Shown here: piece after piece, positions 10,875-55,972 of the stretch
Layout of the letters: each line of letters starts with the position of its first letter
How positions within the stretch are numbered: the first letter of the stretch is position 1
Source of the DNA: Mesorhizobium silamurunense
GTDB lineage: Bacteria; Pseudomonadota; Alphaproteobacteria; Rhizobiales; Rhizobiaceae
Reading direction: 5' to 3'
Assembly: GCF_014843825.1 (NCBI RefSeq)
Contig: NZ_JHQR01000124.1
Coordinates: 1 to 64,000 of the forward strand
Length of the DNA: 64,000 bases
Notes under the pieces: generated by a model
What the model saw: the letters and a program-made list of their open reading frames with translations, nothing else
Told to the model about the DNA's origin: nothing
Database searches by the model: none
Position numbers and translations under genes: made by a program

Positions 10875-10877
10875 GGA

Positions 10878-12245
10878 TCACTTGCCTTCAGAAAGAGAAA
10901 TGGAGGTTCCGCTGCCGTGGGCCTCGCCGGAGCGCACGGCATGGGCAGTGGTCTGGACGCTGTGGGAAAGGCGCTGGGATCGCTGCATGCGTTTGGCCCA
11001 GGCAGGCGGGCCTTGTGCTGCGCCGCTGGCTTGGCCAGCGCGACCAAACGATGGATCGTTGGCAGGCTCGCCCGCCTCTCCCACAGTCCCTAGTGTCGAT
11101 GAACCACCGGTCGCTTCGACGGCGGAACTGACGCCGGAGGCAAAGCTCGACTTCATTGATTGACTGGCACGCGCCGCAGCACGCTTGAGTGGCGAGGCTG
11201 CGCCGGACATAGCAGCGCCTGCGACGCCACCTAGACCGGAGGCGACGCCACCGGCGCCGGTCTGGCCGGCCGACCCGAGGGCATAAGCGGTCGAAGCGCC
11301 TCCCGCGAGAAATGAGCCGCTCCTAGCCGCTCCTGAGAAGGCGGTGGCTCCTCCACGTGTTGCAAGGCCCGCAGCGCCGCCGGCGAAGAGCGCCGCGCCG
11401 CCAGCGGCGAGGCCCGTGCCAACCGCGGCGCCGGCACCAAGCTGCGGTCCGCCGGAGACCATACCATTGGCAATGCCAGGGCCGAAGATGCCGAGACCGA
11501 GCAGCGATAGCGCCGCCAGCACGATCGCCATGGCTTGATCAATGGTAGGATTCTCGCCACCGAAACCTTGGGTGAATTCGCTGAAGAGCGTCGAGCCGAT
11601 GCCGATCACGACGGCAAGAACAAGCACCTTGATACCGGACGAAATGACGTTGCCGAGCACGCGTTCAGCCATGAAGGCCGTCTTGCCGAAGAGGCCGAAC
11701 GGGATCAGAACGAAGCCTGCCAGCGCCGACAGCTTGAATTCGATCAGCGTGACGAAGAGCTGCACAGCCAGGATGAAGAAGGCAAGCAGAACAAGCGCCC
11801 AGGCGAAAAGCAGGCAAGCGATCTGAATGAAATTTTCGAAGAAAGACACATAGCCCATCAGCCCCGAGATGGCCTCGAGTAACGGTCGTCCAGCGTCGAG
11901 CCCGGTCTGCGCCACCTTGCCAGGCCGGAGCAGGTCCTGGACTGTGAATCCGGTGCCGCTTGCCTTGAGGCCGAGGCCGGAGAAGCTTTCGAAGACGATC
12001 CGGGCAAGACTGTTCCAGTTGGAAATCAGGTAAGCGAAGACGCCCACGAACAGCGTCTTCTTGACGAGCCGCGCGAGGATGTCGTCGTCGGCGCCCCAAC
12101 TCCAGAAGAGGGCCGCGAGCGTCACATCAATGACGATCAGGGTGGTGGCGACGAATGCGACTTCGCCGCCGAGCAAGCCGAAGCCGCTGTCTATGTAACG
12201 CGTAAACGTGCCGAGGAATTGGTCGATAATGCCGGTGCTGCCCAT
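10878..12245 (-). CDS. trbL: TrbL, VirB6-like polytopic membrane protein
   Basis: TrbL/VirB6 family protein, 455 residues. Six or more membrane segments fill residues 15-270 (for example EVAFVATTLIVIDVTLAALFWSW and LLFAWALVLLAFFILAVQLFVTLIEFKL). A long Gly/Ala/Ser-rich tail from about residue 270 to the end is typical of rhizobial TrbL and probably unstructured. The start ATG 12245 lies two bases beyond the trbK stop. It should form part of the inner-membrane channel for DNA transfer. Confidence 0.9.
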   Translation of the reverse strand: MGSTGIIDQFLGTFTRYIDSGFGLLGGEVAFVATTLIVIDVTLAALFWSWGADDDILARLVKKTLFVGVFAYLISNWNSLARIVFESFSGLGLKASGTGFTVQDLLRPGKVAQTGLDAGRPLLEAISGLMGYVSFFENFIQIACLLFAWALVLLAFFILAVQLFVTLIEFKLSALAGFVLIPFGLFGKTAFMAERVLGNVISSGIKVLVLAVVIGIGSTLFSEFTQGFGGENPTIDQAMAIVLAALSLLGLGIFGPGIANGMVSGGPQLGAGAAVGTGLAAGGAALFAGGAAGLATRGGATAFSGAARSGSFLAGGASTAYALGSAGQTGAGGVASGLGGVAGAAMSGAASPLKRAAARASQSMKSSFASGVSSAVEATGGSSTLGTVGEAGEPANDPSFGRAGQASGAAQGPPAWAKRMQRSQRLSHSVQTTAHAVRSGEAHGSGTSISLSEGK

Positions 12246-12247
12246 GC

Positions 12248-12571
12248 CTATCGAGCCCTCGGCGAGTTCGCATCCGGCGACGGCAGGGTGACCGGCTGTG
12301 AAGTCGAGCTCACAAATGGCGCTTTGGAACCAAGGAAACGGTCGCGCTGCTCGGTCCACAGGCGCAGACAGCTGCTGTCGCGCAACGCACCCTCGCCGAG
12401 CACCTGGCAACGGCGAAGACCCTCGCGGAGCGGGCTCTGCGACGTCGCCGGCGCCTCGAGCACTGCTGCGCCCGGCTTGTCCTCCTTCCGGGTCATCTCG
12501 ACAACTGTCGCGGCGACTGCGATTGCGACGAAGATGACGGCGATGATGCGAGCAAGGGTCTTGCCATCCAC
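12248..12571 (-). CDS. trbK: TrbK-alt, putative entry-exclusion protein
   Basis: A 107-residue protein in the trbJ-trbL interval with one N-terminal membrane helix (LARIIAVIFVAIAVAATVVEM) and a short periplasmic domain with the conserved LREGLRRCQVLGEGALRDSSCLRLWTEQRDRFLG region (two Cys). This matches the TrbK-alt entry-exclusion family that blocks redundant transfer into a cell already holding the element. Function assigned from family and position only. Confidence 0.85.
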   Translation of the reverse strand: MDGKTLARIIAVIFVAIAVAATVVEMTRKEDKPGAAVLEAPATSQSPLREGLRRCQVLGEGALRDSSCLRLWTEQRDRFLGSKAPFVSSTSQPVTLPSPDANSPRAR

Positions 12572-12582
12572 TGTCGTGATCC

Positions 12583-13341
12583 TCAGCGGTTGAACATTGA
12601 GGCATTGCCGGCCTGGTAACCGGAGCCGGGGGCGAGGAAGCGGCGGCGCTGCTCGCGACCCTGTTCCGCAGCAGCCGCACGTTCGGCTTCAGTCAGCGCC
12701 TGGGCACGACCGTTGGCGGCGACGACGGCGGTTAGGTCGGTGAGTTGCTGGGCCTGGAGTGCGAGAAGCTGGTTGCCGGCCTGCGTCGCCTGCAGCGCGC
12801 CGGTCGCGGATTGGCTGGCGCCGACCAGCGCCGACATTTGGGAGCGATTGGTCTCGATATTGCCGACGACGCCGGACTGTACGCGCATGGCGTCCTGGAG
12901 GCCGCCAACCGTGTTTTGCCAGCGCGAGCGGGCATCCGTGACGAGTTGCTGATCGGATGCGGAGAGCGAGACGGCGCCGTATTGCTGCTGAAAGATCTTG
13001 TCGACCTCTTGAACGTCGAAGGCGATGTTCTGCGCTTCACCGAGGAGTTGCTGTGTACGCTGTACCGACTGCTGCAATTGCTGGAGGGAGGAAAACGGCA
13101 GGCTTGCGAGGTTACGGCCTTGGTTGATCAGCATCTGCGCTTCATTCTGAAGCGAGGTGATCTGGTTGGTGACCTGCTGGAGCGACCTCGCTGCCGTCAG
13201 CACATTCTGCGCATAGTTCGAGGGATCAAACACGATGAACGCATGCGCCGGAGCAATCACTATAGGCGACACCAAGAGCGGCGGAGCGAGCATTGCCGCG
13301 GCCAGGGCGAAGGCGTGCGAGCGGACGCGAAGGGCAGTCAT
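12583..13341 (-). CDS. trbJ: TrbJ, VirB5-like pilus-associated protein
   Basis: TrbJ homologue of 252 residues. A signal peptide ending APAHA precedes FIVFDPSNYAQNVLTAARSLQQVTNQI, the diagnostic TrbJ start, then long Gln-rich helices that would form a coiled bundle on the mating pilus. It overlaps the trbE stop by four bases and is followed 11 bp later by trbK. Confidence 0.92.
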   Translation of the reverse strand: MTALRVRSHAFALAAAMLAPPLLVSPIVIAPAHAFIVFDPSNYAQNVLTAARSLQQVTNQITSLQNEAQMLINQGRNLASLPFSSLQQLQQSVQRTQQLLGEAQNIAFDVQEVDKIFQQQYGAVSLSASDQQLVTDARSRWQNTVGGLQDAMRVQSGVVGNIETNRSQMSALVGASQSATGALQATQAGNQLLALQAQQLTDLTAVVAANGRAQALTEAERAAAAEQGREQRRRFLAPGSGYQAGNASMFNR

Positions 13342-15789
13342 GATTGAGTCTCCTTTTCACCTTGTGGGATGGGGGCGGGCAGGTGCGGAATAAGGTCAGC
13401 GGCCCAGCCGGCGTTTCGGGCCCGCAGCCAGGCGGCGAGGAAACCGTCGCGACCGTGCTCGGCAACCATGCTGGCGATCAAAGCCTGATCGGTCTTGGAG
13501 GATGCTGCGCAGAGCGCGAGACCGATTTCCGACAGGCCGAGTTCAAACAGACGGTTGCCGCGCCGTGACTGGCAGTAGTAATCGCGTTTGGGCGTCGCGC
13601 GCGCCAGGATCTCAATCTGGCGGTCGTTGAGGCCAAAGCGACGATAGATTGCTGTGATCTGCGGCTCGATTGCGCGTTCGTTCGGCAAGAGCAGCCGGGT
13701 CGGGCAGCTCTCGATGATCGCCGGTGCGATCCCCGAATTGTCGATGTCGGAAAGCGACTGGGTGGCAAAGACCACGCTGGCGTTCTTCTTGCGCAACGTC
13801 TTCAGCCATTCGCGCAGCTGGCCGGCAAAACCTTCGTCGTCGAGGGCGAGCCAGCCCTCATCGATAATCAGCAATGTCGGCCGCCCATCGAGCCGGTCAT
13901 CGATGCGATGAAACAGGTAGGACAAAACAGCAGGTGCTGCTCCGGTCCCAACGAGTCCCTCGATCTCGAATGCCTGCACGGATTTCACGCCAATGTGCTC
14001 GGCTTCTGCGTCAAGCAATCGGCCGTATGGACCACCGATGCAATAAGGTCCCAGAGCCTGCTTCAGATCGTTCGATTGCAGCAGCACATTCAGGCCGGTG
14101 ATGGTACGCTCCTCGACCGGTGCCGAGGCGAGCGATGTCAGTGCGGTCCAGATGTGCTCCTTGACATCCGGGGTGACCGGGATGCCTTCGCGCGCAAGGA
14201 TCGCAAGAACCCAGTCGGCCGCCCAGGCGCGCTCATAGGTGTCCTGTATGCGTGCGAGCGGCTGGAGCGAGACGGAGGCTTCCGTGCCTTCGGTGAGCCC
14301 ACCCCCAAGGTCGTGCCAGTCTCCGCCCATGGCGAGCGCTGCGGCACGGATCGAGCCGCCGAAGTCGAAGGCGAAAACCTGCGAGCGCGCATAGCGGCGA
14401 AACTGCAAGGCCATCAGCGCGAGCAACACCGACTTGCCCGCGCCAGTGGGGCCGACGACGAGGGTGTGGCCGACGTCGCCGACGTGGAGGGACAACCGGA
14501 ACGGGGTCGAGCCTTCGGTCTTGCCGTAAAGCAAGGGAGGGCTACCCAAATGCTCGTCCCGTTCCGGCCCACACGGCAGAGAGGGGGATCATGTGGGCAA
14601 GATTGAGCGTCGAGATCGGCGGCTGGCGGACATTGGCGTAGACATGCCCTGGCAACGAGCCCAGCCACGCGTCGACCGCATTGACGGTTTCGACTATTGC
14701 CGTGAAGTCGCGCCCCTGGATGACTTTTTCGACCAGGCGCAGTTTCTCATCCGCAAGACGCGGGTCGGCATCCCAGACCGCGATGGTCGCGGTGACATAG
14801 GCCATGCCCGAGACGTCAGCGCCGAGTTCCTGTAATGCCAAGTCGGCGTCGGCTGCCTTATTCGCGGCGTCCGTGTCCACAAGCACGGACGCCTCGTTCG
14901 TCATGACCTCCTTCAGGATCGCGGCGATCGACTTGCGTTTGGCAAACCACTGTCGCCGGATTTTGGTCAGCAGCTTCGCAGCGTCAGTCTTGTCGAGCAG
15001 GATTGCGCGCGTCGCCCAGCGATAGGGAAAGGCGAGCCGGTTGAGGTCGTCGAGCAGACCTGGCGTGGTCGCGGTCGGGAACCCAACGATGGTGAGCACG
15101 CGTAGATGCTGGTCGCCAAGGCGCGGCTCGAGCCCACCGGTCAGTGGCTGGTCCGCCAGCAGCGCATCGAGATAGATTGGCGTCTCCGGAACGCGCACCC
15201 TATGGCGCTTCGTGGAGACAGTCGAATGCAGGTAAGTCACCGTCTGGCTGTCATCGAGCCACTGACATTCCGGCATGAAGCCGTCGAGCAGAGAAAGCAC
15301 GCGCTCCGTGCGGTCGACAAAGGCGCGCAGGGTTTCGTGCGCGTCCACGTCCGAATGTTCGCGGCCCTCGTAAAGCCACCTCTCCGCGCGAGCGATATCC
15401 TCGGCCGGCGGCAGATAGACGAACGTGAGGAAGTAAGTCGACACGAAGTGGATCCCCTCCTCCTCGAAGTCGGCTTTGCGCTCGGCATCCACCAAGCCTG
15501 AGGCAGGGTCGGGAAACTGGCTGTCGGGATAGGTCGCCGCCTCATGCCGCTGTGCCTCAACGAAGATGCTCCAACCGGAGCCTAGACGACGGAAGGCGTT
15601 GTTGATGCGGGAGGCCACCGCGACCAGTTCGGCGGCTACCGCGGAATCGAGATCCGGTCCGCGAAACTTTGCGGTACGCTGAAAACTCCCATCCTTGTTG
15701 AGCACTACTCCTTTCGCGACGAGCGCAGCCCAAGGCAGGTAGTCAGCAAGGCGGCTGGCGGTGCGGCGGAATTCGGCAAGGTTCATCAT
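13338..15789 (-). pseudogene. trbE: trbE (VirB4 ATPase), broken by a frameshift
   Basis: VirB4/TrbE is the large ATPase that powers pilus assembly and is normally a single protein of about 815 residues. Here the N-terminal CagE/VirB4 domain (from MMNLAEFRRTASRLADYLPWA) stops at a TAG near 14542. The C-terminal ATPase half (Walker A GPTGAGKS, Walker B LLIIDEGWLAL) continues in another frame. Homologues read AVWAGPERDEH across the junction; here the DNA (about 14562-14569) reads as if five bases between two CCGG copies were lost. Both halves are otherwise well preserved, so the break is recent or a sequencing error. Unless repaired, this T4SS lacks a working VirB4. Confidence 0.85.
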
Positions 15790-15799
15790 CGCCGCGGCC

Positions 15800-16075
15800 T
15801 CAAACCGATAGATGACCGGGGATGCGCAGATGCCGACGGCCGACTTCCACGAACAGCGGATCGCGTTTTGCTGCCCACACCGCCGTGAAATGGCCGAGCG
15901 CCCAGAGGAGAAGACCGACAAGCCAGAGGCGGAGGCCGAGGCCAACCGCGCCTGCCAGCGTGCCGTTCAAAATTGCTATTGAACGCGGCGCGCCTGCGAG
16001 CAGGATGTGCTCGGTCAATGCTCTGTGGACGGGAACGGTGAACCCCGGTACCGCATCGAGCTGCTCGAAGGCCAT
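15800..16075 (-). CDS. trbD: TrbD, VirB3-like protein
   Basis: A 91-residue VirB3/TrbD inner-membrane protein: VPGFTVPVHRALTEHILLAGAPRSIAILNGTLAGAVGLGL with two hydrophobic helices, then the conserved KRDPLFVEVGRRHLRIPGHL tail. It abuts trbC (start overlaps stop) and precedes trbE by 10 bp. Confidence 0.92.
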   Translation of the reverse strand: MAFEQLDAVPGFTVPVHRALTEHILLAGAPRSIAILNGTLAGAVGLGLRLWLVGLLLWALGHFTAVWAAKRDPLFVEVGRRHLRIPGHLSV

Positions 16076-16407
16076 CAGATCAGTGCTCCGCCACCGAATG
16101 AGAAGAACGACAGGAAGAAGCTGGACGCCGCGAAGGCGATCGACAGGCCGAAGACGATCTGGATCAGCCGCCTGAACCCTCCGGAGGTATCGCCAAAGGC
16201 AAGCGTCAGACCGGTCACGATGATGATGATGACGGCAATGATCTTGGAGACCGGGCCTTCGATCGACTGAAGGATCCTCTCCAGCGGCTGCTCCCAGGGC
16301 ATCGACGAGCCGGCTGCATTGGCGGCCGAGGCGCTCATCAGACTAACGGCGAGCGTCGTGGCGGCAGTAGCCGCGTAAGTGTAGTTGCGCGAAAACGTGC
16401 GGATCAT
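16075..16407 (-). CDS. trbC: TrbC, VirB2-like pilin
   Basis: Prepilin of 110 residues: signal peptide with AxA cleavage (SASAANA), then two hydrophobic helices (KIIAVIIIIVTGLTLAFGD and RLIQIVFGLSIAFAASSFFLSFFSFGGG) linked by a short cytoplasmic loop, as in TrbC/VirB2 pilins. The start ATG 16407 has AGGAGA ten bases upstream and overlaps the trbB stop (ATGA). An in-frame upstream extension has no pilin character. Probably cyclised or processed by TraF (50260-50805), as in RP4-type systems; that link is inferred. Confidence 0.92.
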   Translation of the reverse strand: MIRTFSRNYTYAATAATTLAVSLMSASAANAAGSSMPWEQPLERILQSIEGPVSKIIAVIIIIVTGLTLAFGDTSGGFRRLIQIVFGLSIAFAASSFFLSFFSFGGGALI

Positions 16408-17387
16408 AAATTGTCTCCTGTGTCGTTCGGGGTGGCTTGGGAGGTGCGATAGTCGCCGTCGGGGCCAAGCCCTTCGACGCGCGTGAGTTCGGTGAGCCTG
16501 CGCGCGGACCCGCGTCCGGATAGAACAGCGACGAGGTCGATGGTTTCCGCAATCAGCGCGCGCGGGACGGTGACGACGGCTTCCTGGATAAGTTGCTCGA
16601 GACGGCGCAGGGCACCGATCCCGGAGCCGGCATGAATGGTGCCGATGCCACCGGGGTGCCCGGTGCCCCATGCCTTCAGAAGGTCGAGGGCTTCCGAGCC
16701 GCGCACCTCGCCGATGGGAATACGGTCGGGGCGCAGGCGAAGCGAGGAGCGGACCAGATCGGCGAGCGTAGCGACACCATCCTTGGTCCGCATGACGACA
16801 AGGTTGGGCGCGGAGCATTGCAGCTCGCGCGTGTCCTCGATGATGACGACACGATCCGCCCCCTTCGCCACTTCGGCGAGCAGGGCGTTGGTCAACGTCG
16901 TCTTGCCGGTGGAAGTGCCGCCGGCAACGAGAATGTTTGCACGGGCTGCGACAGCGGCAAGCAGAGTCACGGCCTGGTTCGCGGTCATGATGCCCGCCGC
17001 CACGTAGTCGTCCAACGTGAAGACAGCGACGGCAGGTTTGCGGATTGCGAAGGCAGGTGCTGCAACGACTGGCGGCAGCAGCCCTTCGAAACGTTCGCCG
17101 GTTTCCGGTAATTCGGCCGACACGCGCGGAGAACGAGGATGTACCTCCGCCCCGACGTGATGGGCGACCAAGCGCACAATGCGTTCGCCATCGGCGGCCG
17201 ACAGCACCTCCCCCGTATCGGCCAAACCCTCGGCGAGCTGATCAATCCAGATTCGGCCATCCGGGTTCAGCATCACTTCGACGATTGCGGGATCGTCCAG
17301 CAACCGTGTGATGGCGGCTCCGAGCGCTGTGCGCAGCATGCGCGAACTGCGCGCACGCGCTTCTGTGTTGTTGTGCGAAACCGCCAT
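16404..17387 (-). CDS. trbB: TrbB, VirB11-like secretion ATPase
   Basis: Hexameric traffic ATPase of 327 residues, first gene of the trb operon. Walker A GGTSTGKT at residues 156-163, the Asp box ([16 protein letters not shown]), Walker B-like region ([23 protein letters not shown]) and His box ([13 protein letters not shown]) are all intact. In related ICEs the copG gene lies directly upstream; here a copG relic is found 2.2 kb upstream, separated by the fic gene, so the normal promoter context has been changed. Confidence 0.93.
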
Positions 17388-37381: not shown

Positions 37382-38692
37382 TTATTTCCGGCGATTCTGT
37401 GGGGTAACTGTGGGGTAGTCGGAAACGTTCTCCTTCTGTGCCACGAGCATCCTGACTGTGTTTTTGGGCACGTTTCGCGAACGTGACTTGGAGACGATCG
37501 CCCGGGTGGCTTCGGCCTGAAAATCGGGGTGATGGTGCCCATAGGTCTCAATCAGCATTTCGACTGTCATACCGAGAAATCCGGCGGCCGCCCACCGGTC
37601 GGTACCCTGCTGCATCAGCCAGGTCGCGGCTGTGTGACGGAAGACGTGCGGTGTGATGTCAGTGCGGAACACGCGCCGCATGCTACCGTCAGGTGCTGCC
37701 ACGTCGTCATACCAGCCGAGCCCGGCCGCCTCGACCACCGAGCGGAAGGCTTTCTTGATCGACTGCACTGGTTTGCCGTTCCACTCTACGACGTAGTCGT
37801 GCGCGATCATGCGGCCGATGCTTGCGCTTTTCCCGCGGCCCTTGGTCTTGATCTGCAACGGCGTTGCCGCCCAGCGACGTACATGTGCAAGCAGCCGGTC
37901 AGGCAACCTGACCGGTGGTTGGCGCTTGTTCGTCTCGTGGCGGCGGGCGGCGCGGCGGTAGAAAATGCCATATTCGAGGTCGACATATCCGGCGCCCTCT
38001 GTTGGCCGGATGGCCGCTCCGCAGACCGCGGCCGACCGGGTGCCGGTGTATAGAGCAACCAGCATGAATCGCGCGACGTGACGTGCGGTGCGGCGATCGC
38101 TTGGCTTACCCTTCCATGACTGTCGCATGCGCCATGCGGCGCGAAGTAGGGCGGCTGCTTCGTCGCGTGTCAACCAACGGTCGCGCGGTACAGGCTTCGC
38201 TGGCAGCACGATTGCAGGTGCAGACGTTATATAGCCTTCACGGTGATAGTTGTTCAGGGCCGCGCGCAGATCCTCCAACTGACGTCTGGCAGCGGGGCCA
38301 TTGCCGTGCACCTTCGCGTAGTCGCGACAGACCTTGCCATTGATGTCGCCGATTTTCGCGTTGCCGAACCACCTTAGCGCAACGATCAGCCGCTTGGCGG
38401 TTTCCGTTGGCTGGGCGTGTGAGGGCGCGACGTCAGTAAGATAAACGCTAACGGCGTCGGCTACCGGGACGGTGGCCGGATCGCGGCCGCGCTCGCGGGC
38501 CGGCCGGTATTTTTCGATGATGTGTTGGGCGAGCCGTCTCTCAGCGCGTTCGCGGTCGCCAGTGCTACCGCAAGCGCTGATGAAGGTTGCGCCATCGCGG
38601 ATGAACCATCCAGCTCCGTTGCGCAGGCTGCCGTCCGTCCTTCTGCTTTCGGCGCACCAGACGAGGCGCGCCCCTTTCGGCGTCCGCGGCAT
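37382..38692 (-). CDS. Tyrosine-recombinase integrase
   Basis: A 436-residue phage-type integrase. Core-binding SAM-like domain at about 75-155, catalytic domain from about 170. Catalytic residues: Arg219 in LYTGTRSAAVCG, His349-x-x-Arg352 in HVFRHTAATWL, and the nucleophile Tyr384 in ETYGHHHP. The usual second His/Trp before the Tyr reads Met in FLGMTVEML, a tolerated variant in some integrases. The 3' end faces the tRNA-Pro fragment at 37267-37313, which is the expected arrangement for integration into a tRNA 3' end. Its start overlaps a small HTH-like gene (38461-38883). Confidence 0.9.
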   Translation of the reverse strand: MPRTPKGARLVWCAESRRTDGSLRNGAGWFIRDGATFISACGSTGDRERAERRLAQHIIEKYRPARERGRDPATVPVADAVSVYLTDVAPSHAQPTETAKRLIVALRWFGNAKIGDINGKVCRDYAKVHGNGPAARRQLEDLRAALNNYHREGYITSAPAIVLPAKPVPRDRWLTRDEAAALLRAAWRMRQSWKGKPSDRRTARHVARFMLVALYTGTRSAAVCGAAIRPTEGAGYVDLEYGIFYRRAARRHETNKRQPPVRLPDRLLAHVRRWAATPLQIKTKGRGKSASIGRMIAHDYVVEWNGKPVQSIKKAFRSVVEAAGLGWYDDVAAPDGSMRRVFRTDITPHVFRHTAATWLMQQGTDRWAAAGFLGMTVEMLIETYGHHHPDFQAEATRAIVSKSRSRNVPKNTVRMLVAQKENVSDYPTVTPQNRRK

Positions 38693-46474: not shown

Positions 46475-46689
46475 ATCGCCCTCCCTGGTTCGCTAAGGTA
46501 TGCAGCGCCCGATGCGCTGCCCAAGGGCGCTGCGGTCGGGCTGTATTCTACTCTTCTCCAGAGGAATAGTCACATCGCATGGGAGATGTCGGCCACCGGA
46601 TCGGTCCTCTGGCGTTTGGTACCATCCGTCAGGCTTCTGCCACTAGGTGCGGCTACGCGGCACATTCTCCCCTATCCGAGTAGCAACCC

Positions 46690-46904
46690 CGTCGCATGGC
46701 AGCGTCGATATTGGCGAGAGAAGTCGCACGGTCCTCGACCGGCAGATAGGTCAGATCGATATCGACCGACAGGCGCGGAAGGTCTCTGACCAAGAGATTG
46801 ATGGCGGTACCACCCTTCAATGCGAATACAGCCTCCTCAGCGACGAGTGGCAGAACTCGAACGAGGAGGGTGACTTGCGCCCGGTAAGCCTCAGACACCG
46901 GCAT
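46690..46904 (-). pseudogene. AbiEii nucleotidyltransferase toxin, 5' piece
   Basis: The sequence MPVSEAYRAQVTLLVRVLPL...FALKGGTAINLLVRDLPRLSVDIDLTY is the AbiEii N-terminal nucleotidyltransferase segment (GGTAINL and DIDLTY match the GGTAL/DxDL active-site pattern). It runs to about 46690 and then loses similarity, cut by the inserted cassette. Its other part is at 44052-44375. Confidence 0.82.
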
Positions 46905-47045
46905 CGAGTGTCTCCGGCACGGTGATCTGATATTTGCTTTCCAGCCGACCGCCGACGACGATCTGACGCTTGCCGCGACCAAGCTCGATACGCTTAATGG
47001 CGGATAAATCACGAGCGTAGCGCACTACCTCATCGTCAAAACAAT
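46891..47045 (-). pseudogene. AbiEi antitoxin, C-terminal remnant
   Basis: Read leftward, VVRYARDLSAIKRIELGRGK RQIVVGGRLESKYQITVPE TLDAGV ends at a TGA that overlaps the abiEii start, the usual abiEi-abiEii coupling. The upstream half of the antitoxin (winged helix) is missing. Confidence 0.7.
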
Positions 47046-47580: not shown

Positions 47581-47907
47581 ATGGCTACTATCGGCACCTT
47601 CAAGAAGTCCGGCAACAACGAGTTCACTGGCGAAATCGTCACGCTCAGCGTCCAGGCCCGCGGCGTCCGCATCGTCCCCGAAAACCGCGCCAGCGGTGAA
47701 AACGGTCCCAGCCACCGGGTCTTCGTCGGCCGAGCAGAGATCGGCGCCGCCTGGGCCAAGCAGTCCAATGAGGGCCGCAACTATCTGGGCCTCAAGCTCG
47801 ACGATCCGAGCTTCACCGCCCCGATCTTCGCAAACCTCTTCGACGACGAAGACGGTGAGGGCTACAGCCTGATCTGGTCCCGCTCGAGCCGCCGCAACGC
47901 GGAATAG
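47581..47907 (+). CDS. DUF736 protein (first copy)
   Basis: A 108-residue DUF736 protein: MATIGTFKKSGNNEFTGEIVTLSVQARGVRIVPEN, then HRVFVGRAEIGAAWAKQSNEGRNYLGLKLDDPSFTAPIFANLF and EGYSLIWSRSSRR. The family is a small beta-rich single-stranded-DNA-binding-like group that is constant in rhizobial ICEs; its job is unknown. AAGGAG lies before the ATG. A second, diverged DUF736 is at 50875-51210. Confidence 0.9.
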   Translation: MATIGTFKKSGNNEFTGEIVTLSVQARGVRIVPENRASGENGPSHRVFVGRAEIGAAWAKQSNEGRNYLGLKLDDPSFTAPIFANLFDDEDGEGYSLIWSRSSRRNAE

Positions 47908-47996: not shown

Positions 47997-48388
47997 GCAT
48001 CGCGTGATGCTCTTCAAGACTCCTCCAAGACTCCTCCGGCGCCGAGGTAACATCTTTAAGGTCGCATCTTGAGGAAGTGCAAATCATGATCGAGCCGTTC
48101 GACGACACCGCTCCCACGGGGGACGAACTCACAGACTATGATCGCAGCCACGCTAAGCTCTACATGCGCTTGTTCGACGCCGATGCCGACGGCGCTGATT
48201 GGCGTGAGGTGGTCAAAATTCTCTTCGGGATCGACCCGGCAAAGGAGCCGCACCGCGCTCGACATGTCCACGACACCCACTTGGTGCGGGCGCGCTGGAT
48301 GACGCGCACTGGCTACCGCCACCTTCTGCGCCAAACTGACACCTAGCGAATATTTCCAGGGTGATGCTGAAAGAGCATCACGCGATGC
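47997..48388. repeat. Inverted pair of an 18-bp motif around the QseM-like gene
   Basis: GCATCGCGTGATGCTCTT (47997-48014) and its exact complement AAGAGCATCACGCGATGC (48371-48388) lie just upstream of the QseM-like gene and just upstream of fseA. Each is itself a near-palindrome (GCATC-N4-GATGC). The second follows another hairpin (GTGATGCT/AGCATCAC, 48361-48381). Good candidates for binding sites of one regulator acting on both genes. Confidence 0.7.
48086..48346 (+). CDS. QseM-like DUF2285 small protein
   Basis: An 86-residue single-domain DUF2285 protein: YDRSHAKLYMRLFDADADGADWREVVKILFGIDPAKEPHRARHV ... RARWMTRTGYRHLL. In ICEMlSym of M. loti R7A a small DUF2285 protein, QseM, is an antiactivator that binds the TraR-AHL complex and the excision activator FseA. 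This gene lies directly before the fseA homologue, so the same role is likely, but the orthology is inferred from domain and position. ATG 48086 follows GAGGAA; a GTG at 48077 is less likely. Confidence 0.7.
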   Translation: MIEPFDDTAPTGDELTDYDRSHAKLYMRLFDADADGADWREVVKILFGIDPAKEPHRARHVHDTHLVRARWMTRTGYRHLLRQTDT

Positions 48389-48467
48389 GTTTTAAGGGCC
48401 TTCCGCCAGTCACCAGAGTCGGGAATCGATTCGTGCACAACTTGCAGTTTTAGCGAGGAGCTGCACG

Positions 48468-49233
48468 ATGAAGCCCGACACGTCGCTTTGGCGAGACAAC
48501 AGCCGCTACGAGTTCTTCGACGACCTGCCAATCGAAGGCCTCGCCTGGGAATGTCTGCGCCGCTCAGACTCTTATCAGCGGCATTATCTGGCACTTGTGC
48601 GTGAGGGAACTGAGAGGGATCCCTGCCCAACCGAAGCACAGAAACGCTGGGGGTTGCGATTTCGCGGCCCGACCCGATTTGTCCGCATTGACGCAAGACG
48701 TTCTGTGGTCACCTCTTGCCAACCCCGCGGTGGTGACCCTCATGGCGTCGCCAGATTTCCTGTCACGCGAAACTTCCACAGCGCCCGTTGAGCTTGGCAA
48801 ACATCACGAGAGCCCACAGGGATTTCATGCCATCCGCGATAGTGGGATCGCGACACAGCTTCTCCTCCTTCCCGGAAGCGCTGCGAGCCGTTCGCTCACG
48901 GCCTTGATCCCGCTCGATTCCCAAACGCTCGGACGGGTCGAGGCTCTGGTCCGGTTCTGGCGCTCCTGTCACAGGCGACCCGTGCCGCCGGATACACGAA
49001 TGACGATTCAGCAGAGGCGTCGCCTGCGCCTGATGATGCGGGCCGCCGACGGTCGCAAGAACGGCGCCAGCTACCGTGAAATCGCGACTGCTTTCTACGG
49101 GGCAGGACGTGTTGCCTCCAACCCGTGGAAAACCTCGTCCCTTCGCGACACCGTGATCGGTCTCGTCAAGGGCGGCGGAGCCATGATTTCCGGCGGTTAT
49201 CTGCAACTCTTGCGCCACCGCAAGCGGCCCTAG
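48468..49233 (+). CDS. fseA: FseA-type excision activator with +1 programmed frameshift
   Basis: Two overlapping frames make one protein. The first (48468-48791, GAGGAG ribosome site) carries a DUF6499 domain (WRDNSRYEFFDDLPIEGLAWECLRRSDSYQRHYLALVREG). The second, in the +1 frame, holds a DUF2285 domain ending YREIATAFYGAG...GGYLQLLRHRKRP at 49233. At 48657-48665 the codons CGA UUU CGC allow tRNA-Phe to slip +1 from UUU (48660-48662) to UUC (48661-48663), joining RWGLRF to AARPDLSAL. This is the slippage reported for msi172-msi171 in M. loti R7A, whose fused product FseA activates rdfS. The full protein would be about 254 residues; the unshifted product is 107. Intact on both sides, so programmed, not decayed. 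Confidence 0.87.
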
Positions 49234-49360
49234 CGCCCGGGGTGGCAATATCAGGCCCCCAATCTTTCCCATCCCCCACGAAGCCGCCTTTCCGCCACCG
49301 TGATCGCCGTCCGCCGCTAAGCGCCAGCGGTTCACCAGAGCTCCACGGAGGCCCGATAAG

Positions 49361-49642
49361 ATGCGACCTGATCTAGCCGTTTTGCCGCCGCGCTTTCTGC
49401 GCACCAAGGAAGCCGCCGAGTTCCTCAGTCTGTCTTCTCGCACGCTCGAAAAACACCGCACTTACGGCACGGGTCCCGCCTACCGCAAACTTGGCGGCCG
49501 CGTCGTCTATGCCGTTGACGACCTCCAGGCCTGGGCTCAGCGCGGCGCGGTGACTTCGACTTCTGACCCTCGTGGCGCTGTGCTTCCCGCCAAGCGCCAT
49601 CCGCCGGCGGCTTTCACTCCGAGCGGACGCTACGGGCGCTGA
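49361..49642 (+). CDS. rdfS: RdfS-like excisionase (recombination directionality factor)
   Basis: A 93-residue protein with an AlpA/MerR-like winged HTH: PPRFLRTKEAAEFLSLSSRTLEKHRTYGTGPAYRKLGGRVVYAVDDLQAWAQRG. The rest is a basic tail. In M. loti R7A rdfS lies upstream of traF in one operon, and the order here (this gene, DUF2840, traF) fits. GGAGG precedes the ATG by 10 bases. It is 128 bp downstream of fseA, its presumed activator. It should bend attachment-site DNA to favour excision by an integrase. Confidence 0.8.
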   Translation: MRPDLAVLPPRFLRTKEAAEFLSLSSRTLEKHRTYGTGPAYRKLGGRVVYAVDDLQAWAQRGAVTSTSDPRGAVLPAKRHPPAAFTPSGRYGR

Positions 49643-49744: not shown

Positions 49745-50263
49745 ATGGGCACTGTCGTTGATTTCCGTTCAGGCCGATCGGCGCCAGACGCTATTGCCGG
49801 CGAAGGCTTAACTGATGTCGAGCTGACCTGGGTCGAGAAAAAGATCGAGTACTGGATCCGCTTCGGTTCGGTCGCTCGGGAGAAGGTACTCGATCGGCGC
49901 CGGCGCATCGTCTCGTTTCGTCCCGGTGACGTCTTCACCTTCGTCCGATGGGCAGCGAACGACTACGACACGATCATCTGCCGCGTCGATATCGTGCGCG
50001 CGGTCGCCGAGGGCGAAGCCCATCAGACGCTGCCGTTCGTGCGGCCCGGCGGTGACATTCTGCTCACGGCTCAAGGCTGGCCCAAGGTCGAGCGCGTGCT
50101 GCAGACGATCGATGGCATCGAGCAACTCGGCATCGCTCCGGGAGCCGTCTCGCCCGATCACTGGCGGCACGTCCACAACCGAATGACTGTTGGGCAGGAG
50201 CCTCGCACCTATACGCTGGATCTCCACCGGGCCTACCTCCTGCGTCGGCGGGTCCAGCCATGA
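49745..50263 (+). CDS. DUF2840 protein
   Basis: A 172-residue DUF2840 protein with LTDVELTWVEKKIEYWIRFG, RIVSFRPGDVFTFVRWAANDYDTIICRVDIVRAV and QTLPFVRPGGDILLTAQGWPKVERVL. Constant neighbour of traF in rhizobial ICEs; function unknown, cytosolic. AGGAGA lies before the ATG and it overlaps traF by four bases. Confidence 0.85.
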   Translation: MGTVVDFRSGRSAPDAIAGEGLTDVELTWVEKKIEYWIRFGSVAREKVLDRRRRIVSFRPGDVFTFVRWAANDYDTIICRVDIVRAVAEGEAHQTLPFVRPGGDILLTAQGWPKVERVLQTIDGIEQLGIAPGAVSPDHWRHVHNRMTVGQEPRTYTLDLHRAYLLRRRVQP

Positions 50264-50805
50264 TGCGGCCACCGATTGTCCTCGTGACGGCACTGGCGAC
50301 CATGGGAGCGCTCTGTCCGGTTCTCAAGCATGTCCCGCCGAAGTTCATCTGGAACGCGTCGGCCAGCGCACCGATCGGTCTCTATCGGATCGATGCCAGG
50401 GGCCCGTTTGGAGCCGATGACCTCGTCGCCGTCCAGCCGCCTGATACGCTTAAAACGTTCTTGGCTGACCGCGGCTACCTGCCGAAGGGCGTGCTGCTCA
50501 TAAAGCATATCCTCGCAGTCTCCGGTCACACCGTTTGCCGGAACAAGTTCACGATTTCGGTCGATGGCAGTGACGTGGGCGTTGCGCTTGAACACGATCG
50601 CGCCGGCCGCGGCCTGCCGAGCTGGCAGGGCTGTCTACGCATCCCGGTCGGTGCCGTTTTCCTCATGAACCGCCAGGTCCGCGACAGCCTCGATGGCCGC
50701 TACTTCGGCCTCGTCTCCACCGATCACGTAATTGGCCGCGCGGTCCCGCTGTGGACCGACGAGCAGGGCGACGGCCGCTTCCAATGGCGCGCTTCAGCGC
50801 CGTGA
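50260..50805 (+). CDS. traF: TraF, conjugal pilin/signal peptidase (S26 family)
   Basis: An S26-type serine protease of 181 residues. N-terminal hydrophobic segment (IVLVTALATMGALCPV), nucleophile Ser36 in SASAPIGLYRID, and general base Lys82 in GVLLIKHILAVSG; the RP4 TraF pattern TxSMPxGxY/K is conserved. In RP4 it cleaves and cyclises the TrbC pilin, so its target here is probably the 16075-16407 pilin. In the rdfS operon, overlapping DUF2840. Confidence 0.9.
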   Translation: MMRPPIVLVTALATMGALCPVLKHVPPKFIWNASASAPIGLYRIDARGPFGADDLVAVQPPDTLKTFLADRGYLPKGVLLIKHILAVSGHTVCRNKFTISVDGSDVGVALEHDRAGRGLPSWQGCLRIPVGAVFLMNRQVRDSLDGRYFGLVSTDHVIGRAVPLWTDEQGDGRFQWRASAP

Positions 50806-50874
50806 GCGCGCCACCGGCGGCACCCTTTGTGCCGTCCAATCGTCACCGGGCACATCAAAGACAGGAGAAAGCAC

Positions 50875-51210
50875 ATGCCACAGATCGGAGAATTCATCCG
50901 CCACCAGACCGGGTATTCGGGGCGAATTCGCACGCTCAGCCTCAACCTTGAGGTCGCAATTGTCGCAGCAGAAGCGAGTGATGCAGACAATGCGCCCGAC
51001 TATCGTGTGCATGCTGGTGGCGAAGATGGCATCGAAATTGGCGCCGGTTGGAAACACTCCAGCGAGAAGGCCGGCGAGTTCGTATCGCTGCAGCTAGACG
51101 ACCCGACTTTCGCGCAGCCAATCCGCGCTTATCTGTTTCAGAACGGCGACGACAAGAAGTCCTGGTCTTTGCAATGGTCTCGTCAGCGCGACCGCGCCGA
51201 GAAGGACTAA
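50875..51210 (+). CDS. DUF736 protein (second copy)
   Basis: A 111-residue DUF736 protein: MPQIGEFIRHQTGYSGRIRTLSLNLEVAIVAAEAS, EIGAGWKHSSEKAGEFVSLQLDDPTFAQPIRAYLFQN and SWSLQWSRQRDR. Overall similar layout but clearly diverged from the 47581-47907 copy, so not a recent duplication. AGGAGA before ATG 50875; three bases separate its stop from the transglycosylase start. Confidence 0.87.
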   Translation: MPQIGEFIRHQTGYSGRIRTLSLNLEVAIVAAEASDADNAPDYRVHAGGEDGIEIGAGWKHSSEKAGEFVSLQLDDPTFAQPIRAYLFQNGDDKKSWSLQWSRQRDRAEKD

Positions 51211-51213
51211 GCG

Positions 51214-51978
51214 ATGTCGGCGCGCCATCGGCCGACGAGCCAAGCGGGAACTTATGCGTTGCCTCGCGCGATCTGGCGCTCGGCTCTCATTCTGTTTGGC
51301 GCGCTTTGCATCACTTGCGTGGTTCCCGCCGCTGCGCCGGCGCACAGCCCGCCTGCCGTCATGCCGTCGGCGCGCAATCGTTACGAGGCTCACATCGCGG
51401 AAGCGGCGAAGCGCTTCCGCCTTCCGCCGACCTGGATCCGCGCCGTCCTTAGCACCGAGAGTGCAGGCGACCAACGCGCCACATCGCGCAAGGGCGCCAT
51501 GGGGCTGATGCAGATCGTACCCAACACCTGGTCCGACCTGCGCGTTCGGTACCGACTCGGCGCCGATCCCTACGAGCCGCACGACAATATCATCGCGGGC
51601 TCAGCCTATATCCGCGAGTTGGTTGATCGCTACGGATCGCCCGGCTGGATTGCCGCCTATAATGCTGGCCCTCGGCGTTACGAAGCGTCGCTGCAAGGCA
51701 GGCGGCTGCCTCGGGAGACGCTTGCCTATGTCGCGAGCATTGCATCCGCCATCGGCAGCGCTGGTACGACGAACGCTACCAGACCGGCAGTCTCCGCCTC
51801 ACCTGACTGGAAGCACGCACCGCTGTTCGCCAAACAGACGAATGGCAGACGGACCGACAGTTTGATGCAGCCCGGGCGCCCGCGTGGCGGTACCTCTTTG
51901 GCGGGAGTTGCCCACAGCAAGGCGCCCCCGGCTTCTGGCCTGTTCATGCACGAAGCGCGCGACAGGTCTGCGCCATGA
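51214..51978 (+). CDS. Conjugative lytic transglycosylase (SLT, VirB1-like)
   Basis: A 254-residue protein: membrane/signal segment (IWRSALILFGALCITCVVPAAAPAHS), then SLT domain from about residue 55 (IAEAAKRFRLPPTWIRAVLSTESAGD) with catalytic Glu82, the GAMGLMQIVPNTW motif and AYNAGP. The C-terminal ~90 residues are low-complexity. It would open peptidoglycan for the mating channel. It ends 244 bp before the relaxase, with the presumed oriT between. Confidence 0.9.
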   Translation: MSARHRPTSQAGTYALPRAIWRSALILFGALCITCVVPAAAPAHSPPAVMPSARNRYEAHIAEAAKRFRLPPTWIRAVLSTESAGDQRATSRKGAMGLMQIVPNTWSDLRVRYRLGADPYEPHDNIIAGSAYIRELVDRYGSPGWIAAYNAGPRRYEASLQGRRLPRETLAYVASIASAIGSAGTTNATRPAVSASPDWKHAPLFAKQTNGRRTDSLMQPGRPRGGTSLAGVAHSKAPPASGLFMHEARDRSAP

Positions 51979-52080: not shown

Positions 52081-52210
52081 CGCACATTGCGCGCCGGTCG
52101 GACAATACGATTTGCCAGGTTTTCAGGCCCGCGCCGCACATTGCGGCCCCTATGGGCAATGTGCGCCGAACGCCAGAAGTCTTGTGTTCGCGTCCTCTTT
52201 TCCACATTGC
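52081..52210. other. Candidate oriT region
   Basis: Between the transglycosylase and relaxase genes, four copies of (G/C)CACATTGC occur at 52082, 52136, 52156 (inverted) and 52202. The middle two form a hairpin CGCACATTGC / GCAATGTGCG with an 11-base loop (52135-52165). Origin-of-transfer sites of this ICE family lie directly upstream of rlxS. The nick site cannot be placed from sequence. Confidence 0.6.
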
Positions 52211-52221
52211 GGGACAACGCC

Positions 52222-53961
52222 ATGGCCGATGAGCGCGCGTTTCGCATTCGGCCAGGCCGCATCCGCTCGACCCGCGCCCAGCAGGCACGGCCCTTCATCG
52301 CGCAGGCGCTAGCGGCGGCGAAAAAAGCTGGCGGTGGCGTCTCGCGCTCGGGAAAAGTCGTTTCCGGCAACCGCTCCCGGTTTGGTCACGGTCAGCGCGC
52401 CAGCATCCAGGCCAATCGCCTTATCACCTCGCGATCGCGCGGTGCGGTCCTAAAGGCTCGCGTTGTCCGTCGTACCGCGAGCGCTGCCTCATTCGCCACG
52501 CATCTCAATTATCTGCGCCGGGAGGGCGTGACCCGGGACGGAGAGAAGGCAGGGTTGTTCGGGCCGCAGACGGGGGATGCCGACGGCGCGGCCTTCGCGG
52601 CGCGCGCCAAGGATGATCGGCACCATTTCCGTTTCATCGTCTCTCCCGACGACGCCCTCGATATGGCGGACCTCAAATCTTTTACACGCGATCTGGTTGG
52701 GCGGATGGAAAAGGACCTCGGCACGCGGCTCGACTGGGTCGCGGCCGATCACTGGAACACCGAGCATCCGCACGTTCATCTGATCGTGCGCGGCGTGCGC
52801 GACGACGGCCAGGACCTGGTCATCTCGCGCGACTACATCAAGGAAGGAATGCGCGACCGGGCTCGCGACCTGATCACGCAGGAACTGGGTCCGCGCACAG
52901 ATCTCGACATCCGCCGCTCGCTCGAAAGCCAGATCCAGTCCGAACGCTGGACCCAGCTCGATCGCCAGTTACTTCGCGACAGCCGCGACACCGGCGTCAT
53001 CGATTTAGCCCCACGCCCTCATAGCCATCCCGACGAATATCATGCGCTCAAGATCGGTCGTCTGCGAAAGCTTGAAGCGCTGGGTCTCGCCGACCAGGTC
53101 GGCCCGGGCCAATGGGTCCTCGACGACCAGGCCGAAGCGACGTTGCGCGAGCTGGGCGAGCGCGGCGACATCATAAAGCGCATGCATCGCGCATTGACCG
53201 AGCGAGGCATCGAGCGGGGTTCGGCCAGTTATGTGTTGGCCGCCGAAAGTCTCGACACACCCATTATCGGCCGGCTGGTCGATCGCGGGCTCGACGACGA
53301 GCTAAGCGGAACGGCCTACGCGGTTGTCGACGGCATTGACGGACGTACCCATCACATCAGACTTTCCGCTCTGGATGCCGCCGGCGACGGCCCGCCGGGA
53401 TCGATCGTCGAACTGCGCAGATTCGATGATGAGCGCGGCCAACGTCAGGTCACGCTTGCGGTGCGCTCCGATCTCGCTGTAGACGAACAGGTTGCGGCAC
53501 CGGGTGCGACCTGGCTCGACCGCCAGGCAATCGCTGGCGAGCCTGCCGCACTGGCCGAGGGTGGCTTCGGCGCCGAAGTCCGCGATGCCTTAAACCGCCG
53601 GGCTGAACATCTGCTCAATCAAGGGCTCGCAGAGCGGCAAGGCAACAGGATCGTCTTCACCGCCAACCTGATCGATACGCTGCGCCGCCGCGAACTGGAG
53701 ATGATTGGCGACAAGCTCGCGGCCGACAGCGGACGGCCCTTCAACCGTGCCGCCAGCGGCGACTACGTCGCCGGCGCCTATCGCCAGCGCTTGTCGCTAG
53801 CGTCCGGTCGTTTCGCCATGATCGACGACGGCCTTGGCTTCCAGCTGGTTCCCTGGATGCCCTCCCTCGAAAAGCATCTCGGCCAGCACGTCTGCGGCGT
53901 CGCTCGTGGTGACGGCGGCGTCGACTGGAGCTTTGCTCGCAAACGCGGGCTCGGTCTCTGA
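52222..53961 (+). CDS. rlxS: RlxS-type relaxase (DUF3363, HUH family)
   Basis: A 579-residue relaxase/VirD2-like endonuclease that nicks oriT. A basic N-terminus with AASFATHLNYLRREGVTRDGEKAGLFG (early Tyr), then the histidine triad HPHVHL (His182, His184, His186) in a WNTEHPHVHLIVRG context, and the long DUF3363 C-terminal region (DPGATWLDRQAIAGEP, LEMIGDKLA). The Tyr that attacks DNA is probably within residues 90-110. It is the largest mobilisation protein of this element and is intact. ATG 52222 follows the oriT candidate. Confidence 0.92.
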   Translation: MADERAFRIRPGRIRSTRAQQARPFIAQALAAAKKAGGGVSRSGKVVSGNRSRFGHGQRASIQANRLITSRSRGAVLKARVVRRTASAASFATHLNYLRREGVTRDGEKAGLFGPQTGDADGAAFAARAKDDRHHFRFIVSPDDALDMADLKSFTRDLVGRMEKDLGTRLDWVAADHWNTEHPHVHLIVRGVRDDGQDLVISRDYIKEGMRDRARDLITQELGPRTDLDIRRSLESQIQSERWTQLDRQLLRDSRDTGVIDLAPRPHSHPDEYHALKIGRLRKLEALGLADQVGPGQWVLDDQAEATLRELGERGDIIKRMHRALTERGIERGSASYVLAAESLDTPIIGRLVDRGLDDELSGTAYAVVDGIDGRTHHIRLSALDAAGDGPPGSIVELRRFDDERGQRQVTLAVRSDLAVDEQVAAPGATWLDRQAIAGEPAALAEGGFGAEVRDALNRRAEHLLNQGLAERQGNRIVFTANLIDTLRRRELEMIGDKLAADSGRPFNRAASGDYVAGAYRQRLSLASGRFAMIDDGLGFQLVPWMPSLEKHLGQHVCGVARGDGGVDWSFARKRGLGL

Positions 53962-53986
53962 CAGCTTTAAAGAAAGGACCATCTCC

Positions 53987-55972
53987 ATGTCCGCCACGAA
54001 AATCCTCTGGGGCCAGATCCTCACTGTCTTCCTGATCGTCCTGTTGACGACCTGGACGGCGACGCAATGGACCGCATGGCGGCTTGGCTTCCAGGCCCAA
54101 CTCGGACCGACCTGGTTCGAAGTCGGCGGCTTGCCCGTCTACTATCCTCCCGCGCTTTTCTGGTGGTGGTACTTCTACGATGCCTACGCCCCGGCTGTCT
54201 TCGTGGAAGGCGGACTGATCGCCGTGTCCGGGGGCTTCCTTTCGATGATCGTTGCAATCGGCATGTCGGTTTGGCGGGCCCGTGAGGTCAAGAACGTCTA
54301 CACCTATGGTTCGGCGCGATGGGCCGACAAGAAGGAGGTCGAGGCTGCCGGCCTGCTCGGCGCCGACGGGGTGGTGCTCGGGCGCTATGAGCGCCACTAC
54401 CTTCGCCACGATGGGCCGGAGCATGTGCTGTGCTTCGCCCCGACCCGGTCCGGCAAGGGCGTCGGCCTGGTGGTGCCTTCGTTACTGACCTGGCCGGGCT
54501 CGGCGATTGTCCACGATATTAAGGGCGAGAATTGGCAAATCACAGCCGGGTTCCGTGCTCTGCACGGACGTGTCCTGCTCTTTGATCCCACGAATTCGAA
54601 ATCGTCCGCCTACAATCCCTTGCTGGAAGTCCGTCGCGGCGAATGGGAAGTCCGCGACGTGCAGAACATCGCCGACATTCTGGTCGATCCGGAAGGAAGC
54701 CTCGAGAAGCGCAACCATTGGGAAAAGACCAGCCACGCGCTGCTGGTCGGCGCGATCCTTCACGTCCTCTATGCCGAGACAGACAAGACGCTGGCCGGTG
54801 TCGCCGCCTTCCTCTCCGATCCGAAACGACCGATTGAGTCCACGCTGGCAGCAATGATGAAGACCGCCCATCTCGGCGAGGTAGGCCCGCACCCCGTCAT
54901 CGCCAGTGCGGCGCGTGAACTGCTCAACAAATCCGACAACGAACGATCGGGCGTGCTCTCCACCGCGATGTCCTTCCTCGGCCTCTATCGCGACCCCGTC
55001 GTGGCCGAGGTGACGAGGCGCTGCGATTGGCGGATCAGCGACATCGTGGGCGCCAAGCAACCAGCGACGCTCTACCTGGTCGTGCCGCCCTCGGACATCA
55101 ATCGGACCAAGCCGCTCATTCGCCTTATCCTCAACCAGATTGGGCGTCGCCTGACCGAGGACCTTCAGGCCAAGAGTCATCAGCATCGGCTTCTGCTCAT
55201 GCTCGACGAGTTTCCTGCGCTCGGCCGCCTCGACTTCTTCGAAACTGCATTGGCATTCATGGCCGGCTATGGGCTGAAGAGCTTCCTGATCGCGCAGTCG
55301 CTTAACCAGATCGAGAAGGCCTACGGCCCGAACAACTCCATCCTCGACAATTGTCATGTGCGGGTGAGCTTCGCCACGAATGATGAAAGGACCGCCAAAC
55401 GTGTGTCTGACGCGCTCGGCACTGCAACCGAGATGCGGGCGATGAAGAACTATGCTGGCCACCGGCTTTCGCCCTGGCTCGGACATTTGATGGTGTCGCG
55501 GCAAGAGACCGCCCGCCAGTTGCTGACGCCTGGCGAGATCATGCAGCTTCCGCCGACCGACGAGATCGTCATGGTGGCGGGGGCACCGCCGATCAGGGCG
55601 AAGAAGGCACGCTACTACGAAGATGCCTGCTTGCGCGATCGCGTCCTGCCGCCACCCGAACTGAGCCGATCCGAACAGGCCCATCCTGACGACTGGAGCC
55701 ACCTGCCCGCGCTGGTTCGCACTGAGATCGCCGAAACTCCCGGCACGTCTAGGCAGGACGATGGAGATCCAACCGAGTCGGAGCAACGCCAACAACCCGA
55801 ACTGAACCGCGTGCGGCCGGTCGAGAAAACGGCTCCGATCGAAAATGAGTTCGAATTCGACGCGGCCGACGAGGCTGATGACGATGCAGTCCGCAATCGA
55901 CGCATGGCGCGGCTCATGCAGGGCGTGGCACGGCAGGTCTCGCTCGACCCCGATGACGGCATGGAGTTGTAG
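53987..55972 (+). CDS. traG: TraG/VirD4 coupling protein
   Basis: A 661-residue type IV coupling ATPase. Two to three N-terminal membrane segments (residues 8-28 and 50-98), Walker A PTRSGKG (residues 152-158), Walker B LLLMLDEFPALG, and the KNAG-like region GHRLSPWLGH. A long acidic C-terminal tail (DDGDP...DAADEADDD) is typical of TraG. It links the relaxase-bound DNA to the trb channel. The ATG used is 53987; 26 bp follow the relaxase stop. Confidence 0.93.
   Translation: MSATKILWGQILTVFLIVLLTTWTATQWTAWRLGFQAQLGPTWFEVGGLPVYYPPALFWWWYFYDAYAPAVFVEGGLIAVSGGFLSMIVAIGMSVWRAREVKNVYTYGSARWADKKEVEAAGLLGADGVVLGRYERHYLRHDGPEHVLCFAPTRSGKGVGLVVPSLLTWPGSAIVHDIKGENWQITAGFRALHGRVLLFDPTNSKSSAYNPLLEVRRGEWEVRDVQNIADILVDPEGSLEKRNHWEKTSHALLVGAILHVLYAETDKTLAGVAAFLSDPKRPIESTLAAMMKTAHLGEVGPHPVIASAARELLNKSDNERSGVLSTAMSFLGLYRDPVVAEVTRRCDWRISDIVGAKQPATLYLVVPPSDINRTKPLIRLILNQIGRRLTEDLQAKSHQHRLLLMLDEFPALGRLDFFETALAFMAGYGLKSFLIAQSLNQIEKAYGPNNSILDNCHVRVSFATNDERTAKRVSDALGTATEMRAMKNYAGHRLSPWLGHLMVSRQETARQLLTPGEIMQLPPTDEIVMVAGAPPIRAKKARYYEDACLRDRVLPPPELSRSEQAHPDDWSHLPALVRTEIAETPGTSRQDDGDPTESEQRQQPELNRVRPVEKTAPIENEFEFDAADEADDDAVRNRRMARLMQGVARQVSLDPDDGMEL

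Follow-up and report, generated by a model that had tools for sequence, protein, structure and literature searches.

With a probability of roughly 0.93, the gene at 48468-49233 is an fseA-type regulator gene, located in the module of a conjugative element in a genome of the Mesorhizobium group and expressed via +1 programmed ribosomal frameshifting. The window, i.e. the whole stretch of DNA that was analysed, is 64 kb long with a GC content of 63%, and it belongs to contig C88 within a 7.04-Mb genome, whose genus grouping in the genome search takes in M. japonicum. The phenomenon is already known, and the copy in the window is one more FseA-type +1 frameshift gene of the kind described in the portions of PMC10359603 consulted; the present analysis adds the placement of this copy in its branch, a survey of the site with its exceptions, and a bias among synonymous codons at the three positions ahead of UUU.

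Gene, frames and probable shift site

The gene comprises the following features.

48455-48460, + strand: Shine-Dalgarno-like GAGGAG ahead of the ATG, read directly from the sequence
48468-48791, + strand: 0-frame ORF, msi172-like, DUF6499; 107 aa without a shift
48648-48663, + strand: predicted frameshift site UGG GGG UUG CGA UUU C
48660-48663, + strand: UUUC, on which tRNA-Phe is proposed, by analogy with the family, to slip from UUU onto UUC
48664-49233, + strand: +1-frame part of FseA, msi171-like, DUF2285 predicted DNA-binding domain (PF10074, E 6e-37)

Both frames and the site between them are seen directly. The 0 frame runs from the ATG at 48468 to a stop at 48789-48791 (107 aa, as read from the sequence), and the +1 frame overlaps it and ends with the stop at 49231-49233. 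The initial annotation placed CGA UUU CGC at 48657-48665 with the junction RWGLRF-AARPD, which is exact to the base: the triplets lie in the 0 frame, at an offset of 189 from the ATG that is divisible by 3. The longer string UGG GGG UUG CGA UUU C (48648-48663) falls within the frame overlap, and here the features of an FseA-type site were all found, i.e. TGG-GGN four codons before UUU, a C directly after it and an open +1 frame. Joining the frames after TTT, with base 48663 skipped, gives a product of 254 aa in which RWGLRF is followed by AARPDLSAL. On this joined product, PF20109 (DUF6499) matches residues 8-65 (E 2e-18) and PF10074 (DUF2285) matches residues 146-249 (E 1.6e-36), which bears out the earlier claim of two intact frames with DUF6499 first and DUF2285 second. 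The helix AWECLRRS of FseA is of the AWEFLRRN type, and its A26, W27, E28, L30, R31 and R32 are invariant in 12 aligned sequences.

By analogy with studied relatives, slippage at this site would be of low efficiency. The majority of ribosomes would keep the 0 frame and produce the 107-aa DUF6499 fragment, and in a minority the P-site tRNA-Phe would leave UUU for the overlapping UUC and enter the DUF2285 frame, giving the 254-aa FseA. This protein would in turn bind a repeat ahead of the adjoining rdfS-like gene and activate it, so that excision and transfer are switched on, and the lone-DUF2285 protein encoded upstream would counteract FseA as an antiactivator.

The 254-aa joined product is collinear with single-ORF relatives, and three of these (L094, L095 and L097) continue through the junction without a gap in the alignment (RWGLRLLEDPALDA vs RWGLRFAARPDLSA). 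The window has a single TGGGGN7TTTC motif, and one or more copies turned up in 33 of 100 shuffles; being this common by chance in 64 kb, the motif is no proof of a shift by itself. We rejected the motif alone as proof for this reason and because two single-ORF relatives, described below, carry such a string without a break. A GCG-AUUU-CGC hairpin, noted by eye at the site, was dropped since many relatives have CCC instead of CGC past UUU. The exact 16-mer TGGGGGTTGCGATTTC is also present in two contigs of a viral collection (L208 and L209).

Recurrence of the site and the frame of constraint

The comparative set consisted of 205 loci plus the window: 4 loci came from its own genome, 14 from one scan of named genome contigs, 4 from M. 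japonicum and 83 from PF20109 searches of 199 order, 146 genus and 398 phylum genomes (groups that overlap), and 100 further stretches were picked among the PF20109 matches listed, mostly the better-scoring ones, with many weaker ones left out. Profile searches gave 206 matches to the N-terminal domain, with the C-terminal domain downstream in 200 and absent in 6, and 184 of the 200 N-C pairs were distinct in sequence. The offset between the domains was +1 in 171 of these distinct loci, 0 in 12 and +2 in a single one (L081), which also has the site. An in-frame TGG-N9-TTT[CT] inside the overlap was found in 166/171 of the +1-broken loci; this is the informative count, as TTT in 166/166 is a product of the filter. 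Elsewhere in 98 representative genes, TTT accounts for 182 of 685 Phe codons (27%). Recurrence in 166/171 loci, unlike the motif alone, therefore counts as proof that the site is real.

The base after TTT is C in 156 of the 166 loci, in agreement with the conservation of UUU-C proposed beforehand, and T in the other 10 (L067, L069, L154, L124, L042, L084, L089, L129, L141 and L191, which read UUU UUU, UUU UGC, UUU UGU or UUU UCC). Because U follows UUU in these ten homologues, the site rule is better written UUU-Y, and re-pairing on UUU instead of UUC may be enough for them. TTT-T is displaced by one codon, nearer or farther, in L119 and L147. In L021 and L180 the site is present and the +1 frame is interrupted further on by a stop; these are possibly decayed copies. 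Homologues with the same break and no site, which the initial annotation had named as evidence against a programmed shift, are nearly absent; the exception is one locus of the 171 (L040), where TGT replaces TTT.

Constraint on the two frames was compared as mean pairwise BLOSUM62 in 98 representatives of <80% identity. Over codons -14 to -1 the score was 1.54 in the 0 frame vs 0.51 in the +1 frame, and past UUU the order was reversed, with -0.39 vs 1.30 over codons +2 to +15 (where stops took up 3.0% vs 0.0% of cells) and -0.44 vs 0.86 over codons +16 to +30. At UUU, the 0 frame thus gives way to the +1 frame as the one under protein-level constraint. Residues of the +1 frame are kept past this point, with P at +4 in 87/98 and W at +15 in 85/98. 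Across homologues, the 0-frame tail past TTT is anywhere between 1 and 265 codons long, and because of this the unshifted product is to be seen as a DUF6499 fragment with an unconserved end. Together, the site, the frames and the conservation in 166/171 loci support, as far as sequence can, the +1 reading from UUU to UUC.

Single-ORF members make up 12/184 in our set, compared with about 39% implied by the accessible part of PMC10359603; they are under-represented here because low-scoring PF20109 matches were mostly left out. In 10 of these 12 relatives, no TTT is found four codons past a WG tryptophan. The near-identical L114 and L115 (GC 41%) carry TGG GGC TTA CAG TTT C in the reading frame of an unbroken gene; as evidence of a shift, the string thus looks necessary but is not sufficient.

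Codon choice ahead of UUU and alternative readings

Synonymous codon choice in the 98 representatives is strongly biased just before UUU. Gly at -3 is encoded by GGG in 70/97 cases, compared with 13.6% in the remainder of these genes; for Leu at -2, the codon is TTG in 48/86 (12.8% elsewhere) and TTA in 12/86 (1.5% elsewhere); and Arg at -1, which is 48657-48659 in the window, is CGA in 60/66 (9.1% elsewhere in the same genes), all of these being counts that draw on related, hence non-independent, sequences. At a 60% identity cut (54 sequences), CGA still encodes 29 of 32 Arg residues at -1, compared with 9.9% elsewhere. In 18 genes of the window, CGA was used for 39/520 Arg codons and TTT for 41/215 Phe codons.

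Slippage to the +1 frame is favoured by weak pairing of the codon in the E site. We tentatively propose, at a little under even odds, that the cis signal is wider than the published UUU plus WG, that selection at the RNA level acts on the run UGG GGG UUR CGA UUU Y, and that CGA, in the E site with UUU in the P site, stimulates +1 slippage in the branch of the window, with CUU, CAG and UUG replacing it in other branches. The UGGGGG stretch was pointed out, and stalling suggested, in the consulted part of PMC10359603, and the excerpt of a review (PMC5009743) notes that the fourth codon ahead of UUU is a conserved Trp codon and that Gly is encoded directly after it. Among these partial texts, a scope outside which the original 2015 report lies, no description of CGA at the fseA shift site was found, and a literature search brought up no paper on this subject besides the PMC5009743 review. 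A codon-level description of the site, with synonymous bias at -3, -2 and -1 and the UUU-U variant, is open to simple reporters.

The codon bias also bears on an alternative that we do not favour and regard as improbable, in which the ATG gives rise to a DUF6499 protein, DUF2285 is translated separately from an internal start of its own, and the two act as a two-part regulator. Start-type codons do occur in the +1 frame of the window (48595, 48601, 48679, 48688, 48730, 48733 and 48742), and in 75/98 representatives an ATG, GTG or TTG lies in the interval bounded by the upstream stop of the +1 frame and codon +15. However, the same interval is without ATG in 67/98 and without any of the three in 23/98, and the conserved P (+4) and W (+15) precede the first +1-frame ATG of the window (48742), with TTG and GTG also found in that frame. 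The synonymous bias at UUU and at the codons ahead of it likewise argues against two separate proteins. Annotation is in part on the side of two genes: among 40 listed of 71 matched plasmid records, both DUF6499 and DUF2285 are named as genes in 22, only DUF2285 in 2 and nothing in 15, and 1 is unannotated, in a table that omits pseudogenes, so that some of the 40 may carry a pseudogene label. Moreover, the consulted part of PMC9601964 treats rihF1a and rihF1b of Azorhizobium caulinodans as two genes, each with a start and a stop codon of its own, states that frameshifting is absent there, and reports that neither gene complements alone. Failure of rihF1a or rihF1b alone to complement (PMC9601964, in part) would fit a fused product too. 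The start-type codons in the +1 frame, together with L114 and L115, slightly temper the frameshift reading.

An inactivating mutation or a sequencing error, which would make the locus a pseudogene and would account for the lack of a single frame that reads the whole gene, was rejected as extremely improbable, since 171 distinct loci have the same break at the same offset, protein constraint persists on either side of it, and the scanned neighbouring genes of the module give full-length or near full-length domain matches. The locus is thus very probably one gene, and not a pseudogene, as proposed in the initial annotation, and fseA-type loci should be read as one regulator gene rather than as two fragments or a pseudogene.

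The surrounding module and known FseA systems

The gene is accompanied by the following features, and in studied relatives this module decides when the conjugative element leaves the chromosome.

48077-48346, + strand: qseM-like ORF, lone DUF2285, candidate antiactivator (PF10074, E 5.7e-9; no PF20109)
49243-49271, + strand: TGGCAA-N17-TTCCCA, an inverted repeat ahead of the rdfS-like gene, 5/6 pairs complementary
49361-49642, + strand: rdfS-like excisionase, HTH_17 (PF12728, E 4.6e-10; TIGR01764, E 0.0019, below cut-off)
49745-50263, + strand: DUF2840 gene (PF11000, E 7.4e-70)
50260-50805, + strand: traF-like signal peptidase (PF10502, E 4.2e-22; TIGR02771, E 1.9e-23, below cut-off)
50869-51210, + strand: DUF736 gene (PF05284, E 1.1e-36)
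51214-51978, + strand: SLT-domain (transglycosylase) gene (PF01464, E 1.7e-22)
52087-53961, + strand: relaxase of the DUF3363 type, rlxS-like (PF11843, E 4.8e-92; PF03432, E 3.9e-7)
53834-55972, + strand: coupling protein TraG/VirD4 (PF02534, E 1.3e-99; NF010450, 1238 bits)

In at least 105 of 166 loci, the window included, a qseM-like match on the same strand precedes fseA by 19-197 bp (median 132), and in at least 16/166, which include L204 of M. japonicum, one lies on the opposite strand just downstream of fseA; in 45/166 loci, short ones searched with one query, such a match was absent. An rdfS-like gene follows within 500 bp of fseA in at least 106/166 loci. The qseM-like and rdfS-like counts are lower bounds, given the limited length of the loci and the use of a single query.

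The repeat, with arms at 49243-49248 and 49266-49271, is tentatively taken as a candidate FseA box. When arms were anchored without regard to complementarity (101/106 sequences, 48 distinct pairs), the inner three bases paired better within sequences than after swapping (1.688 vs a swapped mean of 1.347 and a maximum of 1.646 in 5000 swaps, which ignore relatedness). A general scan for arms was barely above shuffles (6.58 vs 6.22 of 8), none of the arm pairs was among the top 25 mutual-information pairs, and in the close relatives L005 and L006 only 4/6 arm positions pair. The published FseA box consists of two inverted hexamers with a spacer of 15-16, according to the consulted part of PMC10359603, compared with 17 in the window repeat, so the two are likened by layout and not by letters.

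Two DUF736 genes, at 47605-47907 (+) and 50869-51210 (+), bracket the stretch of qseM-like, fseA, rdfS-like, DUF2840 and traF genes. At 46653-47012 (-), a 119-aa ORF has a match confined to the initial part of the AbiEii family and is probably an AbiEii remnant. Genes of the trb type (TrbI, CagX, TrbE-like and secretion-ATPase matches) are found at 7988-17387 (-), ∼35 kb from the relaxase and traG (52087-55972 +), with other genes in between, among them those for Fic and HipA proteins and a tyrosine recombinase (37382-38692). The TrbE-like ATPase at 13338-15945 (-) appears split, with CagE_TrbE_VirB in one ORF and the TraG P-loop in the next, which is a possible break. No traR-like (LuxR) match was found among the window ORFs scanned with Pfam, a subset of all ORFs.

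Several known systems can be set beside this gene. The frameshift of msi172-msi171 was reportedly described in a 2015 PNAS paper. With this pair of ICEMlSym-R7A, the window copy shares overlapping frames with DUF6499 before DUF2285, the +1 shift, rdfS as the putative target (PMC10359603, in part) and the conserved Trp codon four before UUU with its Gly codon (PMC5009743, in part). The link to msi172-msi171 made in the initial annotation therefore stands for the FseA-like character (PF20109 plus PF10074, +1 site) and not for closest counterpart: the copy in the window is 27.6% identical to the M. japonicum counterpart L204, compared with 59% for L003 and 48% for L002 of its own genome. L204 differs in its site, UGG GGG CUC CUU UUU CGC, and in its layout, being preceded by luxR-type (GerE) and AHL-synthase (autoinducer-synthase) genes and followed by a convergent lone-DUF2285 ORF, whereas the window copy has a same-strand qseM-like ORF before it and the rdfS-like gene directly after. 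The arrangement in R7A is that of L204, according to the part of PMC5882170 consulted. The FseA-like pair of L003 (contig C178) has the +1 offset and the site UUG UUU CGC; that of L002 (contig C323), also with the +1 offset, has UGG AGC CUC CUU UUU CGC and is located behind autoinducer-synthase and LuxR-type genes. The plasmid record NC_002682 (M. japonicum MAFF 303099) also contains an FseA-like gene. The nearest relative of the window copy is L005 from M. tamadayense (96%), among 14 relatives in named genome contigs.

The DUF2285 domain also occurs outside FseA. Its region in FseA matches RovC (6xz5_A) weakly, at residues 189-247 (E 6.1e-5), and the target system of RovC differs, being type VI secretion as given by the Pfam name. 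By composition only, the FseA domain (residues 146-249) is basic (K+R 19, D+E 6), whereas the qseM-like ORF has K+R 13 and D+E 16 and resembles QseM as a lone DUF2285 ORF (48077-48346) with more acidic than basic residues. In the consulted part of PMC10359603, 4709 unique FseA homologues are reported, about 61% with the +1 site and frequently misannotated. From this homologue set, as far as that part describes it, we found no essential difference; the window copy is like it in the AWEFLRRN-like motif, the DUF6499-DUF2285 order, the +1 site and the WGL encoded by a UGGGGG-type sequence.
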